Shown here one piece after another: positions 2,212 to 23,226 of a stretch of 37,030 bases of DNA (position 1 is the first letter of the stretch; each line of letters begins with the position of its first letter). A program made the position numbers and the translations under genes. Source of the stretch: a virus. The DNA is taken from positions 1 through 37,030 of IMG/VR virus record IMGVR_UViG_3300008266_000199. One strand, given 5' to 3'. The notes beneath the pieces were generated by a model, which saw only the letters and a program-made list of their open reading frames with translations, made no database searches and was not told the DNA's origin.

Positions 2212-2501
2212 ATACGCACCTTCTTGTGTAGATCAAAATCAGGCGCTTTCTTGATCGGACACTTCGGGCCGGTCTTGTCTTTGCTCTTTCGCAGATCAAG
2301 GTCAGATCGTGTCTTGAGATCGCGCTCAGGAGAGAACGTGCAAGATGGCAGCACTTCTATCGTGCCCCCACTTGAAAGGAAGCCAGCAGTCAGGGACGCA
2401 ATCAGCAATCGTCGCGCCTCTTTGTCTTGCAGGGACTCGTTCGGTGTCAATTCTTCGTTGGCTGGTGGAATCATATTCGTTATTGTAGCACGCTCTGTCA
2501 C
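2208..2501 (-). CDS. Hypothetical protein (97 aa), last gene of the minus early operon
   Basis: A 97-residue hydrophilic protein: an N-terminal helical segment (about residues 15-45) and a very basic C-terminus rich in Lys, Asp and Arg (SDLDLRKSKDKTGPKCPIKK). The GTG start overlaps the NinG stop as GTGA at 2498-2501, which favours it over the overlapping plus-strand frame at 2224-2547. No family is recognised. It is the most distal gene of the replication/recombination operon. Confidence 0.58.
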   Translation of the reverse strand: MTERATITNMIPPANEELTPNESLQDKEARRLLIASLTAGFLSSGGTIEVLPSCTFSPERDLKTRSDLDLRKSKDKTGPKCPIKKAPDFDLHKKVRI

Positions 2502-3070
2502 TTGCTTACCCCTAGTCGTTTCTCATGGAAGTCTATCTGCTCTTTGAAATACTGTACTTGCCCGGCTATCCATTCGCGTGATGGCTTGAATGTCGCCTTA
2601 GACCACGCTACAAGCTCATCTACGCAATCAACCCCATACATATCAATCATGGCTGATCGGTAAGCCAGCACGGTTGTGGTGTTCTTCATTCCCCATTGGT
2701 TACACTGCGGGCATTGCGGGTGAATGTTGATCTCGTCTGCCTTCGTTGCTTTCTTCCCGCGCTCAATGAAGTGCCCGCCCTGCATTTCCTGCCACGGCTT
2801 CGACACTCCGCACGTTATACACTTGCAATATCCGTTATCGTCAGCAGCTTTGAGGCGCACCATGCGCTGACAGAGGACTGCGGCAGCGTCTAGCTCCTGG
2901 GCGATGCTCTTGACCTTGGCTTTCTTTGGCTTTGGCTTTGCAGGCTTGTGCGCCTTCTTTTCTAACTCCGCTTGCCAGTAGTGATCTTTAGTGCAAAATC
3001 CTGCCTGCTCCCATGTATCAGAGTTCTTTATACTTGGCAGCTCGGACTTGCAGTGGCGGCACTTTCTCAT
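2498..3070 (-). CDS. ninG: NinG/Rap recombination protein
   Basis: A 190-residue protein of the lambda NinG (Rap) family. In lambda it acts in phage recombination as a structure-specific nuclease on branched DNA. The sequence shows an N-terminal zinc pair set (CRHC and FCTKDH), a Lys/Pro-rich linker (about residues 38-55), and the conserved C-terminal core: CKCITCG, MQGGHFIERGKKATK and INIHPQCPQCNQWG. Length matches the family (about 190-205). The ATG start overlaps the methyltransferase stop as ATGA. It sits with NinB in the same operon, while the annealase, exonuclease and SSB are in the divergent operon, so together they form a full recombination set. Confidence 0.93.
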   Translation of the reverse strand: MRKCRHCKSELPSIKNSDTWEQAGFCTKDHYWQAELEKKAHKPAKPKPKKAKVKSIAQELDAAAVLCQRMVRLKAADDNGYCKCITCGVSKPWQEMQGGHFIERGKKATKADEINIHPQCPQCNQWGMKNTTTVLAYRSAMIDMYGVDCVDELVAWSKATFKPSREWIAGQVQYFKEQIDFHEKRLGVSK

Positions 3071-3813
3071 AGAAGCCCCTCGCTTAGGATTCGGAAAGCA
3101 GCAGCAGCGGCATGTGGATATTGTCCATTGCCAATGGCTTTAAGTCTGTCCATTTGTGCGGCCATGCCATTAGCCATTCTGTCCACTCCGGATTTATCTT
3201 TCCTCCTGCATGGGTTGCCAGCGTAGGCGTTTTTCTTGTGTACTCCGCTGGATACGCTCCCTCCTTGGCGTTGTGTGCCGTGGGGGTAGGCAAGAATCCA
3301 AATGCGCGGCCTGACATGGCAAGCTCCAAGCTCTCCTGCTGATAGGCATATCCATTCAGCATCATACCCGCTTTCGGCCAAGTCTCCGAGAACGGTTCCG
3401 AGCCCTCTAGCAGTGAGCATTGAGGAATTTTCCATAAATGCAAATCGTGGTCGTATTTCGCCAATAATCCGGAGCATATGCTTCCACATTCCAGACTTTT
3501 CCCCGTCGATTCCGGCACCTTTCCCGGCGCTGGATATGTCTTGACAAGGAAATCCTCCCGATACCACATCAACAAGTCCTCTCCACGGCTTTCCGTCAAA
3601 GGTTTGAACATCATCCCAAATCGGGAAAGGCGGGAGAATTCCGTCATTTTGTCTTGCGACAAGTACGCACGCTGGATATGGCTCCCATTCAACAGCACAG
3701 ACTGTTTTCCATCCGAGCAAATGTCCTCCAAGGATTCCGCCACCAGCTCCTGCGAACAGTGCCATTTCTCGTAAAGCGCCTTGCTGATTATCCACCCCAT
3801 GTTCACTCCTCAT
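3067..3813 (-). CDS. C5-cytosine DNA methyltransferase
   Basis: A 248-residue enzyme transferring a methyl group from S-adenosylmethionine to cytosine C5 in DNA. Motif I is FAGAGGG (residues 20-26), motif IV is FPCQDIS with catalytic Cys90, motif VI is ENSS (128-131), motif VIII is VRPRIW (167-172) and motif X/GNG is at 228-230. The target-recognition region between motif VIII and the GNG block is only about 55 residues, short for the family. ATG overlaps the NinB stop as ATGA and the stop overlaps NinG. No restriction endonuclease is nearby, so it probably protects phage DNA. Unusually, a second long reading frame with recognisable conserved motifs lies inside it (3084-3800). Confidence 0.92.
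   Translation of the reverse strand: MRSEHGVDNQQGALREMALFAGAGGGILGGHLLGWKTVCAVEWEPYPACVLVARQNDGILPPFPIWDDVQTFDGKPWRGLVDVVSGGFPCQDISSAGKGAGIDGEKSGMWKHMLRIIGEIRPRFAFMENSSMLTARGLGTVLGDLAESGYDAEWICLSAGELGACHVRPRIWILAYPHGTQRQGGSVSSGVHKKNAYAGNPCRRKDKSGVDRMANGMAAQMDRLKAIGNGQYPHAAAAAFRILSEGLL
3084..3800 (-). CDS. Nested overlapping gene inside the C5 methyltransferase
   Basis: A 238-residue reading frame lying entirely inside the methyltransferase gene, one frame over. Its ATG at 3800 is preceded by AGGAG with a 5-nt spacer, a better ribosome binding site than that of the methyltransferase; a GTG at 3806 is also in frame. The protein carries motifs I remember from phage proteins annotated near methyltransferases: LAKYDHDLHLWK, SETWPKAGMMLNG, GFLPTPTA, and a C-terminal INPEWTEWLMAWPHKWTDL. 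The Trp-rich blocks suggest a folded protein and not a random translation. Function unknown; it could bind or modulate the methyltransferase, and a translated frameshift fusion is another possibility. Long chance overlaps occur elsewhere in this genome, so the motifs and ribosome binding site carry the case, not the length. Confidence 0.6.
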   Translation of the reverse strand: MGWIISKALYEKWHCSQELVAESLEDICSDGKQSVLLNGSHIQRAYLSQDKMTEFSRLSRFGMMFKPLTESRGEDLLMWYREDFLVKTYPAPGKVPESTGKSLECGSICSGLLAKYDHDLHLWKIPQCSLLEGSEPFSETWPKAGMMLNGYAYQQESLELAMSGRAFGFLPTPTAHNAKEGAYPAEYTRKTPTLATHAGGKINPEWTEWLMAWPHKWTDLKPLAMDNIHMPLLLLSES

Positions 3814-4247
3814 TGCTTCGCTTCCCGATACTGCTCAAATACCGCCAGGGATGGGTCAGACCACTTGATTGACTGATCCGCGCCAAATGCTTGTATGTAA
3901 TCCACTAGTGCCGAAAACGTGGGCTTGTCCATCTTTGACGTTCGCATTCCAAGCAGCACAAACCCGTCACCGTTGATATTCGGCACAAACTCAGCGCCCT
4001 TGAATGACCCCGTGATAATGTCCTTCCAAGCTTCGGGTGAGTGCTTCTTGTCGAACCATGTCACTTGGTTGGATATGTCGGTCAGGAGCGCCCAAAGGAG
4101 GTTATTCTGCTCCCCTGATCTTGTTTCGCGCCCAAGAGATACAATTACCGGCCCCGACTTCAGCCCGTTTATGATGTTTTGCTGTATCCACGGCATTGCA
4201 GCAGCAGCTCCGGCCATGTCGTCTATCTTGCGCTTAATGTCGGCCAT
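3810..4247 (-). CDS. ninB: NinB recombination protein
   Basis: A 145-residue protein of the lambda NinB (Orf) family, a recombination mediator that binds single-stranded DNA and SSB and can stand in for RecFOR functions. Family features are visible: GPVIVSLGRETRSGEQNN near residue 32, WFDKKHSPEAWKDIIT in the middle, and the GMRTSKMDKPTFSALVDYI block followed by a short helical end. An ATG at 4247 was chosen; the preceding TTG at 4250 is closer to the AGGAG site and could also be used. Its stop overlaps the methyltransferase start as ATGA. Confidence 0.92.
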   Translation of the reverse strand: MADIKRKIDDMAGAAAAMPWIQQNIINGLKSGPVIVSLGRETRSGEQNNLLWALLTDISNQVTWFDKKHSPEAWKDIITGSFKGAEFVPNINGDGFVLLGMRTSKMDKPTFSALVDYIQAFGADQSIKWSDPSLAVFEQYREAKQ

Positions 4248-4259
4248 CAATCCATGCTC

Positions 4260-8253: not shown

Positions 8254-8843
8254 CACTATCGCCTAAACGCGCTGGAAGGCTCACTGCCAGCGTTTTTGCC
8301 AATGCCATAGGGATAGGCTATGACTCGCGGCAAAAGACTTGGAGGCAGCTTACAGGCAAGGAAGAACGCTTCCAAGGCAATGCTGCGACTCAGTGGGGCA
8401 GTGACAACGAAGTAAATGCGATCCAGCAGTATGAAGTGATGACCGGCAACATAGTCGAGAGCGCATTACATGGTCAGGAGTTTGTGATTCATCCTGAGCA
8501 CGATTGGCTCGGATGTACGCCGGATGGGATTGTGATAGATCATTTGCTGAAGGTTGTGATTGAGGCCAAGTGCCCCGCGTCAATGAATCTGTATGGAGAG
8601 GTTCCGGCGCACTACATGACCCAGGTTCAAGGGCAGATCGAAATAGTGGGAGCCGACCACGCGCATTTTGCTTGCTGGACCCCTGAAGGCTTTGAAGTGT
8701 TTGAAGTGCCGCGAAACCCGCAATATTGGCAAGAATGCTTTGCCTTGCTGGATGAATTCTGGCAATGTGTGAAAAACGATGTAGAACCAAAGAAGCGCAA
8801 GAAACCAACATTACCAACAGTTGAATACAGGAAAATAATATGA
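8250..8843 (+). CDS. YqaJ-type viral recombination exonuclease
   Basis: A 197-residue nuclease of the YqaJ/lambda-exonuclease type (PD-(D/E)XK fold). It would resect DNA ends to give the single strands that ERF anneals. Active-site blocks visible are the RLTAS start (residues 10-14), a helix with [13 protein letters not shown] (50-62), GCTPDGIV with metal-binding Asp92, and IEAKCP with Glu105 and Lys107, then the QVQGQ helix (125-129). GTG start overlapping the ERF stop as GTGA. Confidence 0.92.
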
Positions 8844-9265
8844 AGCGCGGAGTAAATCGAGTGATGCTTGTCGGGTCTGTAGGCAAAGACCCTGAATCAA
8901 AACATCTGCCATCCGGCAGCATGGTTATCAATTTCAGCGTAGCAACTTCGGAAAGCTGGAAGGATAAGCAAACCGGCCAGCAACAGGAGCTGACGGAATG
9001 GCACCGCTGCGTATGTTTCGGCAAGCTCGCTGAAATCATTGCACAGTACGTCAAGAAGGGCAGCAAGCTCTACATCGAAGGAAGCCTGCGTACTCGGTCA
9101 TGGGAGCAAGACGGAGCGAAGCGATACGCCACGGAGATTGTGGTAAGCGAAATGCAGATGCTAGACGGAAAGCCTCAGGATTCCGGCCAGCAGCCCGGCC
9201 AGGGTCGCGCTCCTGTTCAGTCAGCGCCAAAACAAGATAATTTTGACGATGATATTCCGTTCTAA
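8840..9265 (+). CDS. ssb: Single-stranded DNA-binding protein
   Basis: A 141-residue SSB. The OB fold covers about residues 1-110, with the classic opening [42 protein letters not shown] and [13 protein letters not shown] Gln/Pro-rich linker leads to the acidic tip DDDIPF, the bacterial SSB partner-recruiting tail. It protects single strands during replication and recombination. Start overlaps the exonuclease stop (ATGA). Confidence 0.96.
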
Positions 9266-9267
9266 TC

Positions 9268-9492
9268 ATGCGGCCATCCGAGCAACTAGCAGCAATCCTA
9301 TCGGGAAAGATGCTACCGAGTGAAGCAGATGACGCAGTGCAATCATGGCTGCGTTTATCTGTTTACAACCTTGCAAAGCAGGTGTTACTGTTACCATCGA
9401 AAGAAGAAAGAAGAATGCGGCTAAATGCCGTACACGGGCCAGAATTGCGAAGATTAGTCGGCCTTGAATGCAAAAGACTATTAGGGGAATAG
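9268..9492 (+). CDS. Conserved small phage protein (74 aa)
   Basis: A 74-residue helical protein, MRPSEQLAAILSGKMLPSEADDAV at the start and a Leu/Arg-rich C-terminus. The form MRPS..L.AI..G..LP.EAD..V..WL occurs in short proteins of other phages next to recombination genes, with no known function. It starts two bases after the SSB stop and ends 2 nt before the helicase start, so it belongs to the same transcript. Confidence 0.66.
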   Translation: MRPSEQLAAILSGKMLPSEADDAVQSWLRLSVYNLAKQVLLLPSKEERRMRLNAVHGPELRRLVGLECKRLLGE

Positions 9493-9494
9493 GG

Positions 9495-10859
9495 ATGGAA
9501 TACGCTGATTTTATAAGAAGCAAGTCTTTCAAAACAAAGTCAGCCGGTTTTGTTGCTGACTTGTCAGAATATCCGCTGTTTGGGTATCAGTCTGACATTA
9601 CGCAATGGGCGCTTAGTCGAGGCCGCGCTGCAATCTTTGCAAACACCGGGCTTGGTAAAACGCTGATGCAACTAACGTGGGCAGATCAGGTTGCACGCAA
9701 TACCGGATCTCCGGTGCTGGTTATAGCGCCATTGGCCGTATCAGAGCAGACAATAGGCGAGGGGCAGAAGTTCGGCATTAACGTCGAAAGGTTTGAATTC
9801 TGCGAGGTATCAGGTCCAAAGATTTACATCACCAACTATGAGCAATTGCACAATATAGACGAAAACCAGTTCTCCGCAATCGTGCTGGACGAGTCTAGCA
9901 TATTGAAAGGAACGGACAGCAAGACCCGCCAACTAGTTCAAGACAAGTTCCGGCACATTCCGTACAAACTAAGCTGCACTGCCACCCCGTCACCTAATGA
10001 CTTTATGGAGCTTGGAACCCAGGCTGAATTCCTTGGCATTATGTCTCAGGTAGAAATGCTTGCCATGTTCTTTATCCATGACGGCAGCGACACCTCCAAA
10101 TGGCGATTGAAGGGACACGGTCGCAAAAAGTTTTTTGAATGGCTGGCAACGTGGGCAATCTTCATAACAAAGCCTTCAGACATTGGCAGGCCAGACGAAG
10201 GGCATGAATTGCCTGAATTGATCTTCCATGAGCATATTATTGACTCAGGAATCACAGATGGGCTATTTGCTCCGGTTGCTCAGGGATTGCTTGATAGAAA
10301 CAAGGCCAGAAAAGACACTGTAGATTCGCGGGTAGAGAAGGCGGCAGACATTGCCAATTCGTTTGATGACCAGTGCCTGATATGGTGTCACCTGAATGAC
10401 GAATCCGAAAAGCTGAAGTCTGTAATCGATAACGCTGTAGAAGTAAAAGGCTCGGACGATCCAAAGCATAAAACCTCATCCATGATAGGGTTTGCCAAAG
10501 GCGAAGTTATCAAACTGGTCAGCAAGCCAAAAATATGTGGCTTCGGGATGAACTTTCAGTCTTGCAATAAGATGGTATTCGTGGGACTCTCTGATTCGTG
10601 GGAACAGTTCTACCAAGCTGTGAGAAGATGCTGGCGCTACGGGCAGACAAAGCCGGTTCATGTTCACATAGTGAGCGCGGACATTGAAGGCGGCGTACTT
10701 GCTAACATCAAACGCAAAGAACAGCAGCACCGGGAATTGATGGCCGAAATGATAGCTGTAATGAAAGACAAGACTTTGATGGAATTGGGGAAAGCAAGAA
10801 ACGAAAAGGCAGACTACAACAATACAAAGACAATGGAGATTCCGCGATGGGTAGCGTGA
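9495..10859 (+). CDS. SNF2-like SF2 helicase/ATPase
   Basis: A 454-residue superfamily 2 ATPase similar to SNF2-type phage helicases. Walker A ANTGLGKT (about 49-56), motif II LDESS (131-135), motif III TATPSPND (162-169) and a motif VI region AVRRCWRYGQ (375-384). The RxWRxGQ form is typical of the SNF2/RapA group. It probably translocates on double-stranded DNA and not as a classic unwinding helicase. Start at ATG 9495 follows a GGGGAA site; the frame is open further upstream, but that would run deep into the preceding gene. The 3' end overlaps the methyltransferase by 13 nt. This helicase-methyltransferase pairing recurs in phages, and a shared function in DNA modification or anti-restriction is plausible. 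Confidence 0.87.
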   Translation: MEYADFIRSKSFKTKSAGFVADLSEYPLFGYQSDITQWALSRGRAAIFANTGLGKTLMQLTWADQVARNTGSPVLVIAPLAVSEQTIGEGQKFGINVERFEFCEVSGPKIYITNYEQLHNIDENQFSAIVLDESSILKGTDSKTRQLVQDKFRHIPYKLSCTATPSPNDFMELGTQAEFLGIMSQVEMLAMFFIHDGSDTSKWRLKGHGRKKFFEWLATWAIFITKPSDIGRPDEGHELPELIFHEHIIDSGITDGLFAPVAQGLLDRNKARKDTVDSRVEKAADIANSFDDQCLIWCHLNDESEKLKSVIDNAVEVKGSDDPKHKTSSMIGFAKGEVIKLVSKPKICGFGMNFQSCNKMVFVGLSDSWEQFYQAVRRCWRYGQTKPVHVHIVSADIEGGVLANIKRKEQQHRELMAEMIAVMKDKTLMELGKARNEKADYNNTKTMEIPRWVA

Positions 10860-11812
10860 TAGACCAGGTAATAACAGACAAGTATTCGATATATAACGGC
10901 GATTGCGTAGAAGTGGCCTCGGCGCTTCCTGAAGGCTCGGTAGACTTTTGCATATACTCGCCTCCCTTTGCATCGTTGTACACTTACAGCAACAGCGATC
11001 GAGATATGGGAAACGTCAAAAGCGATGATGAATTCTTCGAGCACTTTGCCTTTTTGGTGAAGGAGCTTTACCGGGTCATGGCCCCCGGCAGGAACATGGC
11101 CGTACATTGCATGAATCTGCCCTCATCCAAGGTACGCGATGGCGTGATCGGGCTTAAAGACTTTCGCGGGGATCTGATTCGTTCTTTTCAAGACGCTGGC
11201 TTTATTTACCATTCAGAGGTTTGCATCTGGAAAGACCCCGTACTAGCCATGCAAAGAACCAAGGCACTCGGGTTGCTTCACAAGCAGATCAAGAAGGACT
11301 CTGCAATGTCACGGCAGGGAATCCCTGATTACTTGGTAGTCATGCGAAAGCCTGGGATTAACGCAAAGCCATGCGCCGGAGAGTTTACGCACTATGTCGG
11401 GGACAATCCGCCAGAAGGGTTTATTGGCCTGCAATACGATGACGGGCGGGCCTACTATGTCCCCGGCCCCGCAGGTACTTCGGTTGACGTCTGGCAGAAC
11501 TACGCAAGCCCGATATGGGATGATATTCGTCAAACGAACACGCTTCAGTTTCAAGAAGGGCGAGACAATGACGACGAAAGGCACATCTGCCCGCTGCAAC
11601 TGGATGTAATCGAAAGAGCTTTGCAGCTTTGGAGTATGCCGGGTGATGTAGTGTTTACGCCATTCCTTGGGATAGGATCTGAGGCTTACACGGCAGTCAA
11701 GATGGGCAGAAAGGCCGTAGGCTCAGAGCTGAAGCCATCATACTTTGCGCTTGCGAAACGGCACATGGCCCTTGCAGAAAAGACTCAATACGATATGTTC
11801 GGATCTGAATAA
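10847..11812 (+). CDS. N4/N6 DNA methyltransferase (beta class)
   Basis: A 321-residue amino-methyltransferase that modifies adenine N6 or cytosine N4. The catalytic motif IV is SPPF (38-41) near the N-terminus, and the S-adenosylmethionine motif I, TPFLGIGSEA (about 271-280), is near the C-terminus, the order of the beta class. SPPF in place of DPPY leans towards N4-cytosine, but this is not decisive. The PDYLVVMRKPG and IWDDIRQTNTLQF segments in between are typical of the family. No cognate nuclease is present, so this is likely an orphan protecting enzyme. A TAATG overlap joins it to the HTH gene. Confidence 0.93.
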   Translation: MGSVIDQVITDKYSIYNGDCVEVASALPEGSVDFCIYSPPFASLYTYSNSDRDMGNVKSDDEFFEHFAFLVKELYRVMAPGRNMAVHCMNLPSSKVRDGVIGLKDFRGDLIRSFQDAGFIYHSEVCIWKDPVLAMQRTKALGLLHKQIKKDSAMSRQGIPDYLVVMRKPGINAKPCAGEFTHYVGDNPPEGFIGLQYDDGRAYYVPGPAGTSVDVWQNYASPIWDDIRQTNTLQFQEGRDNDDERHICPLQLDVIERALQLWSMPGDVVFTPFLGIGSEAYTAVKMGRKAVGSELKPSYFALAKRHMALAEKTQYDMFGSE

Positions 11813-21889: not shown

Positions 21890-23226
21890 TGTAGCGCCTC
21901 AAATTTCTGTCTGAATTCTCTGTTGTTCATCAGGTCTTCGATTGTGGTGGAAAGACTGACTTTCTCATCAACAAATGCCCGTTCAATCCTGCGAAGCGAT
22001 GCCGGGTCAAAATAGCCTGGGTCTGTGGAAATCTTGTTAACAACTGCTTCCGCTGCCGGGTCTTCAAGTATCTGTGTCAATACTGAGAGAGTTGCAGCCC
22101 GTGGCATTGATGTAATCATGTCGGCCACTTGCGGCAGAGCTGTTACGGGGAAGCGATTAGTCACGCGGCCCATTCCAGCAGCGCCAGAGACAACGCCAGC
22201 GGCCAGCCCTAGCGCCACCTTGTTAAAGCCCGCGTCAAGCGAGGAAAGAACCTCTACGGGGCTTTCATTGCCAGCCGGAGTAGCAGCTTTGAATATCTGC
22301 ATCATGGCGCCGATTGCTACAGCGGAGATGGCCAGCTTGGTCCCTGCTTTAGTCGGGCCACCTGATAGCAATCCAGTCATGCCGCCAAGCAATACACTTC
22401 CAGCCGCCTGCGTCCCTGCCGCATATGCCGCTGTTTCCAGCGGGTCAGCCTGTCCGTTCAATGCGGCGAGCGTAAATCCTTCAAGCCCGGTTTCACCAAC
22501 CCTGCCGAGTCTGTTCATCAGCGTGGCCGTGGATTTTGAATTGACTGTGGCGCTTTTTAGGGCAGCAGCAACACTAGGAGCCAAAGCAATAGATGTTCCG
22601 CCCTTCTCAGCGGCCTTTGCAGCACTAATGGCCGCAAGCTGTGCATTGCCACGCGCAGACGCAATAGGAGCGCGAGCGGTCAGCATGGTCATCATGTCGC
22701 CACCGATCTGCCCGAGCCAAAATGATGTTGGGCTTTGCTGCTGCATGGCCTCGGTTCTAGCTTGCTGCTGTGCGCCTGCATTTGGTCGAAACTGGCTAAA
22801 GTCTCCCGTTCGGATCGCGCCCGCCAATTCTCCGCCTCTTTGGGCCAGGCCAAGCAAGTCTGAGCCGGTAGGGCCGGGAATCGTTTCTTGCCCCAAGGTC
22901 GGCACCGGAATCAATGTTTCAGGCTGCTGGAAATTGCGTACATCGCCGCCGCCCCGCTGATAGTTTGCAGGGTTCATAAAATCAGGAAGCTGTGCCGCGT
23001 TATTCACCGACCTTGCGGCAATGTTCGCCAGAACGTCAGGAATGTTCGCCACATTACCAGCAAGCCTAGATGCCATGCCCTGCATCATCGCAGAGCCTGA
23101 AGTATCTACTGCCTGCCGCTGCTGTTCTCGGTTTGCCACCATTGCCTGATTGCCTGCAACGCTAGGCGGGACAGACGACGAGGCGGCTTGACGCTGTTGG
23201 GCAATCATTTCAGCGATTGTTGGCAT
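21886..23226 (-). CDS. Internal virion/ejection protein
   Basis: A 446-residue protein, Gln- and Ala-rich at the N-terminus (MPTIAEMIAQQRQAASSS), with long apolar stretches between about 245 and 365 (AAYAAGTQAAGSVLLGGM, GAMMQIFKAA, LGLAAGVVSGAAGM) and a helical end (IEDLMNNREFRQKFEAL). These could be membrane-inserting segments. In podophages proteins of this composition, located between the tail and fibre genes, are packaged in the head and ejected with the DNA. No enzyme motif is visible. TAATG overlap with the upstream gene. Confidence 0.7.
   Translation of the reverse strand: MPTIAEMIAQQRQAASSSVPPSVAGNQAMVANREQQRQAVDTSGSAMMQGMASRLAGNVANIPDVLANIAARSVNNAAQLPDFMNPANYQRGGGDVRNFQQPETLIPVPTLGQETIPGPTGSDLLGLAQRGGELAGAIRTGDFSQFRPNAGAQQQARTEAMQQQSPTSFWLGQIGGDMMTMLTARAPIASARGNAQLAAISAAKAAEKGGTSIALAPSVAAALKSATVNSKSTATLMNRLGRVGETGLEGFTLAALNGQADPLETAAYAAGTQAAGSVLLGGMTGLLSGGPTKAGTKLAISAVAIGAMMQIFKAATPAGNESPVEVLSSLDAGFNKVALGLAAGVVSGAAGMGRVTNRFPVTALPQVADMITSMPRAATLSVLTQILEDPAAEAVVNKISTDPGYFDPASLRRIERAFVDEKVSLSTTIEDLMNNREFRQKFEALQ

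Follow-up and report, generated by a model that had tools for sequence, protein, structure and literature searches.

The window analysed here, 37,030 bases long, is a virus record from IMG/VR, and all positions refer to its numbering. Its minus strand carries a gene for the large domain of a C5-cytosine methyltransferase, termed alpha, and a second open frame nested within it, termed beta. The locus and its parts are:

3067..3813, minus strand: alpha, C5-cytosine methyltransferase large domain, 248 aa, with motifs I-VIII and X
3084..3800, minus strand: beta, nested +1-frame protein, 238 aa, the proposed recognition and motif IX subunit
3806..3810, minus strand: AGGAG Shine-Dalgarno site, upstream of the beta ATG by 5 nt and of a candidate alpha GTG at 3795 by 10 nt, identified in the sequence
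3793..3800, minus strand: paired starts, beta ATG 3800 and candidate alpha GTG 3795, 5 nt apart
3736..3762, minus strand: alpha motif I, ALFAGAGGG (alignment of 76 alphas; alpha aligned with M.HhaI)
3541..3558, minus strand: alpha motif IV with the catalytic Cys, GGFPCQ (same alignments)
3424..3432, minus strand: alpha motif VI, ENS (same alignments)
3360..3389, minus strand: beta segment SETWPKAGMM, in DNA that encodes the part of alpha a little ahead of motif VIII
3295..3318, minus strand: alpha motif VIII, HVRPRIWI (same alignments as motif I)
3189..3293, minus strand: beta variable cassette LPTPTAHNAKEGAYPAEYTRKTPTLATHAGGKINP, the proposed recognition segment, where alpha is poorly conserved (26-41%)
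3141..3191, minus strand: beta segment PEWTEWLMAWPHKWTDL, similar to motif IX by alignment with the canonical motif via actinophage bridge proteins
3115..3138, minus strand: alpha motif X, AIGNGQYP, overlapping the beta residues right after WTDL (alignment of 76 alphas)
3810..4250, minus strand: upstream neighbour, NinB-like recombination mediator (PF05772, E=1.5e-30), whose stop overlaps ATG 3813 (ATGA)
2498..3070, minus strand: downstream neighbour, NinG-like (PF05766, E=5e-11), whose start overlaps the alpha stop (ATGA)

The original prediction had placed both frames and the Shine-Dalgarno site at these positions, and this held (AGGAG-TGAAC-ATG), as did the claim that one DNA segment encodes DRLKAIGNGQ of alpha and WTDLKPLA of beta in two frames. 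A refinement concerns the start of alpha, which is uncertain and could be ATG 3813, GTG 3795 or ATG 3765.

Homologues of the nested frame are widespread. A tblastn search with beta found 49 phage records and 15 plasmids, including plasmids from Leptospira and cyanobacteria and one archaeal plasmid. Pattern scans, one per database, gave at least 501 confirmed stretches in IMG/VR, a count that is a lower bound, and 155 in GTDB genomes; they worked with a tight set of betas (A3), an earlier alignment (A1) having proved too heterogeneous. The analysis below uses 180 loci, comprising loci fetched from phages, plasmids and genomes together with the window. A beta-like frame lies +1 to alpha in all 180 and overlaps the alpha match in 179, the sole exception being the enzyme of Propionibacterium phage B22 (L019), which has a long insert in the catalytic frame. 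Beta apart from alpha was not seen among the 180 loci, as would be expected if both are parts of one enzyme. This co-occurrence was rejected as proof that beta is a gene, as any +1 reading of alpha would coincide with alpha likewise.

Frame length was also dropped as evidence, because chance frames of similar length occur in the window: two further long frames lie opposite genes, one of 239 codons (8353-9069, minus strand) and one of 314 codons (22016-22957, plus strand). The null model for stop codons kept the alpha protein fixed and shuffled its synonymous codons. Under this model the overlap in the window acquired 5.8 stops on average, and each of 200 shuffles contained at least one. Across 162 near-complete loci no beta-frame stop was observed, against a mean of 4.3 per locus under synonymous shuffling; the +1 frame of neighbour genes contains about 12 stops per 230 codons. 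Similarity in the beta frame was assessed by codon permutation on 60 random pairs with an alpha identity of 35-65%. It exceeded the null with a mean z of 6.0, and 92% of the pairs scored above 3, compared to a median z of 1.1 for neighbour genes of the same loci. Medians are quoted for the controls because three neighbour-gene pairs, with DNA 75-82% and protein 48-60% identical, gave z values of 14-18; these are probably frames taken on the wrong strand. The permutation null ignores shared ancestry, an objection that the neighbour-gene controls answer only in part.

Substitution patterns in 19 independent close pairs provide a separate measure. An OLGenie-like dNN/dNS ratio was 0.064 for beta (bootstrap 0.045-0.083) and 0.39 in neighbour genes; the control value is not 1, so that the contrast and not the absolute value counts as evidence. 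In the same pairs alpha showed 0.111 changes per site at codon position 1 and 0.127 at position 3, against 0.066 and 0.182 in neighbour genes. These results show that both frames are under purifying selection, and that selection on beta goes beyond what alpha explains. The arrangement thus qualifies as an overprinted gene pair by selection in both frames, with translation of both remaining an inference. The suggestion that a second gene was overprinted on an enzyme gene is therefore supported, on the basis of conservation, and two of the checks proposed with it gave strong synonymous constraint and homologues of the nested frame, which were never found apart from alpha. The accompanying caution that length is weak evidence, given long chance frames elsewhere, also held.

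Alpha meets the criteria for a C5 large domain in that motifs I, IV (PC), VI (ENV/ENS), VIII and X are present in order. Its match to PF00145 (E=8e-27) covers residues 17-183 only, and neither PF00145 nor M.HhaI matches beyond motif VIII. The AlphaFold2 (AF2) model of alpha (pLDDT 74, pTM 0.76) is a C5 catalytic domain, with which Foldseek found M.HhaI at E=2e-12. In a complete single-chain enzyme the interval from motif VIII to motif X would hold both a recognition domain and motif IX, and alpha fails this criterion. Motif IX is absent from the alpha alignments and present in the enzymes of Gordonia phage Sanjuju and phage B22. Because the matches end at motif VIII and are followed by only about 50 poorly conserved residues before motif X, a stretch that AF2 models with low confidence, alpha is judged to be without a full recognition domain and without motif IX.

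The identity of beta is less directly accessible. Its profile gave no match in Pfam or the PDB and no direct match to canonical C5 enzymes. The AF2 model of beta alone, built with 76 homologues, was of low confidence (pLDDT 56, pTM 0.23), and Foldseek found no match with it. All 76 betas match PHROG_1008 ('DNA methyltransferase'), the best at 1e-36. The N-terminal 65 or so residues of beta resemble nothing known, and several relatives lack them.

A connection to canonical enzymes comes from actinophages. In Mycobacterium and Streptomyces phages alpha ends after motif VIII, and the +1 chain has the recognition region, motif IX and motif X; a tblastn search with the chain of Medusa found 570 records, mostly of actinobacteriophages. 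In Sanjuju one frame runs on to motif X. The beta segment NPEWTEWLMAWPHKWTDL was matched in the proteins of Medusa, Samora, Sanjuju and B22. In these a segment of this type shares its frame with motif X, which it immediately precedes, and it can be aligned with canonical motif IX, LTPKECFRLQGFPDKY. The EWMMG-type segment is carried by second chains in Medusa and Samora, which strongly match PHROG_1008, and by single-chain enzymes in Sanjuju and B22; the PF00145 match of B22 spans the region of this segment. A segment of the SETWPKAGMM type is also found in the +1 frame of the actinophage forms. In these phages the beta-type motifs thus occupy the position of the recognition domain and motif IX. 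The original prediction had assigned the nested motifs to phage proteins found near methyltransferases. This needs correction: because the same motifs directly precede motif X in one frame in actinophages, they belong to the methyltransferase itself. Of the features expected of a small domain, a motif IX-like segment is therefore present in beta by the bridge alignment, although the assignment rests on the bridge proteins and on a short segment.

Two further observations on the actinophage forms are recorded here. Sanjuju has an unexplained +1 frame of 104 codons over motif VIII (L014 1757-2068) that matches PHROG_1008 at E=4e-19. An identical GTGAGAGGACTACTCAGTG is present in Medusa (L012 ~1766-1784) and Sanjuju (L014 ~1754-1772), inside the RGLLS codons of alpha. 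It could possibly serve as an internal Shine-Dalgarno site and GTG start for the second chain, an idea inferred from sequence alone.

Another feature expected of a small domain is a variable, exchangeable segment. Along the DNA, conservation alternates between the two proteins, being strong in alpha over motifs I-VIII and X and in beta between VIII and X. Alpha identity is 0.41-0.95 (mostly at least 0.6) over motifs I-VIII and 0.26-0.30 between VIII and X; there beta identity is 0.33-0.54, followed by 0.67 over motif IX. The cassette adjoining motif IX is decoupled in identity from the rest of beta, which meets the criterion. Between the window and Stenotrophomonas phage SOVA965 (L006) it is 83% identical, against 30% for the rest of beta, and between the window and L010 72% inside against 29% outside. 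The comparison with L001 gives the opposite pattern (31% inside, 46% outside). The cassette moves between distant members as target-recognition domains do, and a role in recognition is proposed on that basis. Taken together, beta is likely to be the small domain, combining target recognition and motif IX, of a two-subunit C5 methyltransferase. Its fold is inferred, and there are no expression, binding or activity data.

The starts of the two frames were compared in 131 loci in which both N-termini are resolved. In 112 of these beta starts 4 nt after alpha (NTGAATG). In 109 of the 112 the +1 codon directly before the beta start is TGA, so that beta has no upstream extension. The beta start is ATG in 111 of the 112 loci, and alpha uses ATG, GTG and TTG in 69, 32 and 11. 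The codon for Asn2 of alpha is AAT in 124 of 124 loci, compared to 511 of 1226 for other Asn codons; the loci are related and no exact probability is claimed. In L022, which belongs to the window's own subfamily, the alpha start lies 5 nt after that of beta, and the equivalent in the window is GTG 3795. This subfamily has an N-terminal extension and apparently a reversed start order. E. coli can use both frames of a start site whose two start codons lie close together (PMC9841429), which makes initiation of two proteins from one ribosome site plausible here, but this has not been shown for the present loci.

Natural C5 enzymes of two chains are known, namely M.EcoHK31I and M.AquI (PMC3404938), and C5 enzymes divided at the border of motif VIII and the recognition domain, whether by nature or by design, are functional (PMC3404938; PMC5944983). 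M.EcoHK31I (YGGCCR) resembles the present pair in that its large subunit has motifs I-VIII and X and motif IX lies on the smaller polypeptide (PMC3404938), a criterion met here. Its small frame is reportedly also nested in the large one (Lee et al. 1995). However, the large subunit of M.EcoHK31I is described as carrying the recognition domain (PMC3404938), and YGGCCR enzymes have clear recognition-loop motifs (PMC2413257), whereas here alpha is too short between VIII and X and the variable cassette lies in beta. M.AquI (CYCGRG) is likewise a C5 enzyme naturally in two chains (PMC3404938), but its small chain has half of the variable region together with motifs IX and X, while here X stays in alpha. 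Its layout is closer to the Medusa and Samora forms, in which motifs IX and X are both on the small chain. The engineered circularly permuted or split forms of M.MpeI and M.SssI are similar: the cut falls after motif VIII and ahead of the recognition domain, the C-terminal helix is attached to the large domain, motif X stays on the large chain, and the resulting chains correspond to the two native domains (PMC5944983). They differ in being engineered, encoded by separate genes and not overprinted. The family name of PHROG_1008 is silent on a second subunit or overprinting. C5 enzymes made of two chains, the smaller of which has motif IX, are therefore already known. The split into large and small domains, the complete overprinting, the pairing of the start codons and the wide distribution are apparently undescribed as far as the open-access literature goes. 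No prior report of the phage arrangement was found there; subscription papers were outside the scope of the search, so an earlier report is not excluded.

In view of the above, we propose that one DNA cytosine-5 methyltransferase is made as two polypeptides from the same DNA. Alpha would be the large domain, with the AdoMet-binding and catalytic motifs I-VIII plus motif X, and beta would be the small domain, with its own start codon in the +1 frame, a few nt from that of alpha. Ribosomes at a single Shine-Dalgarno site would pick either of the close starts and so produce both subunits from one message. The subunits would then assemble, alpha methylating the DNA and beta selecting the site and supplying motif IX. 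As a whole, the two-polypeptide reading is probable; translation of both frames, binding of alpha to beta, DNA methylation by the pair and the role of the paired starts are inferred. A bolder reading, towards which we lean by a small margin, is that the small (~230-300 aa) C5 methyltransferases that are widespread in phages, prophages and plasmids are obligate heterodimers with overprinted catalytic and DNA-recognition domains and the paired start NTGAATG. The arrangement would be old enough to be shared by many phyla of bacteria and by one or more archaeal plasmids, and recognition cassettes would have been exchanged within the doubly coding stretch.

Three other explanations can be considered. 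The first is that beta is a genuine protein of different function, such as anti-restriction or regulation, that merely rides on the methyltransferase gene. The absence of a curated domain or fold match for beta, and its N-terminal region without counterpart, would agree with this. It is nevertheless unlikely, as beta seems to supply exactly what alpha is missing, the bridge proteins have these segments too, ahead of motif X, the cassette varies in the manner of a recognition domain, and beta was never found without alpha. The second is that beta does not use its own start and is translated by programmed frameshifting out of alpha, as part of a single long chain. In its favour, actinophages have the same segments in one frame with motif X, and in the single-chain Sanjuju form the +1 frame over motif VIII remains conserved. 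This is very unlikely in view of beta's own conserved ATG, the in-frame stop directly before it in nearly all loci with the common spacing, the conservation of beta also upstream of motif VIII, and the omission of motif X that a single shift would cause. The third, that beta is a chance open frame conserved merely via alpha, could appeal to the constant coincidence of its homologues with alpha and to the two other long chance-like frames in the window, but it is all but excluded, being already contradicted by the synonymous-site tests: shuffling with the alpha protein fixed destroys both the open frame and the similarity, neighbour-gene controls behave differently, and the Asn2 codon is invariant.

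If the two-polypeptide reading is correct, two essential enzyme halves share the same ~700 bp and are kept in distant mobile elements, which would make this a gene overlap of unusual depth, and one that can be tested, and would offer a natural C5 enzyme split into large and small domains. It also raises the question of how a recognition domain alters specificity while its DNA encodes a second protein. Annotation of a single frame leaves one half of the enzyme missing from databases, and work on alpha alone may find inactivity.

In all 11 phage records of the nested set that were examined just one frame is annotated, sometimes alpha and sometimes beta. The phage records L004 (1498-2226), L005 (1495-2193) and L006 (1384-1884) have an annotation for beta but none for the catalytic alpha frame. 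A point against the two-polypeptide reading is that one frame is interrupted in L046, L095, L115, L117 and L132, whether by sequencing error or by decay. A relative of EcoHK31I was sought via E. coli genomes; four matched, in prophage-like settings where inspected, and this candidate was set aside as not a restriction-modification system. A prophage-like copy in E. coli PCP07014 (L186 4991-5752) is annotated as a pseudogene and has stops in both frames at nearly the same place. The phage of the window has a second methyltransferase: at 9468-11812 on the plus strand a helicase-like protein (matches related to Helicase_C, ResIII and SNF2) is directly followed by an overlapping gene for an N6/N4 DNA methyltransferase (PF01555).
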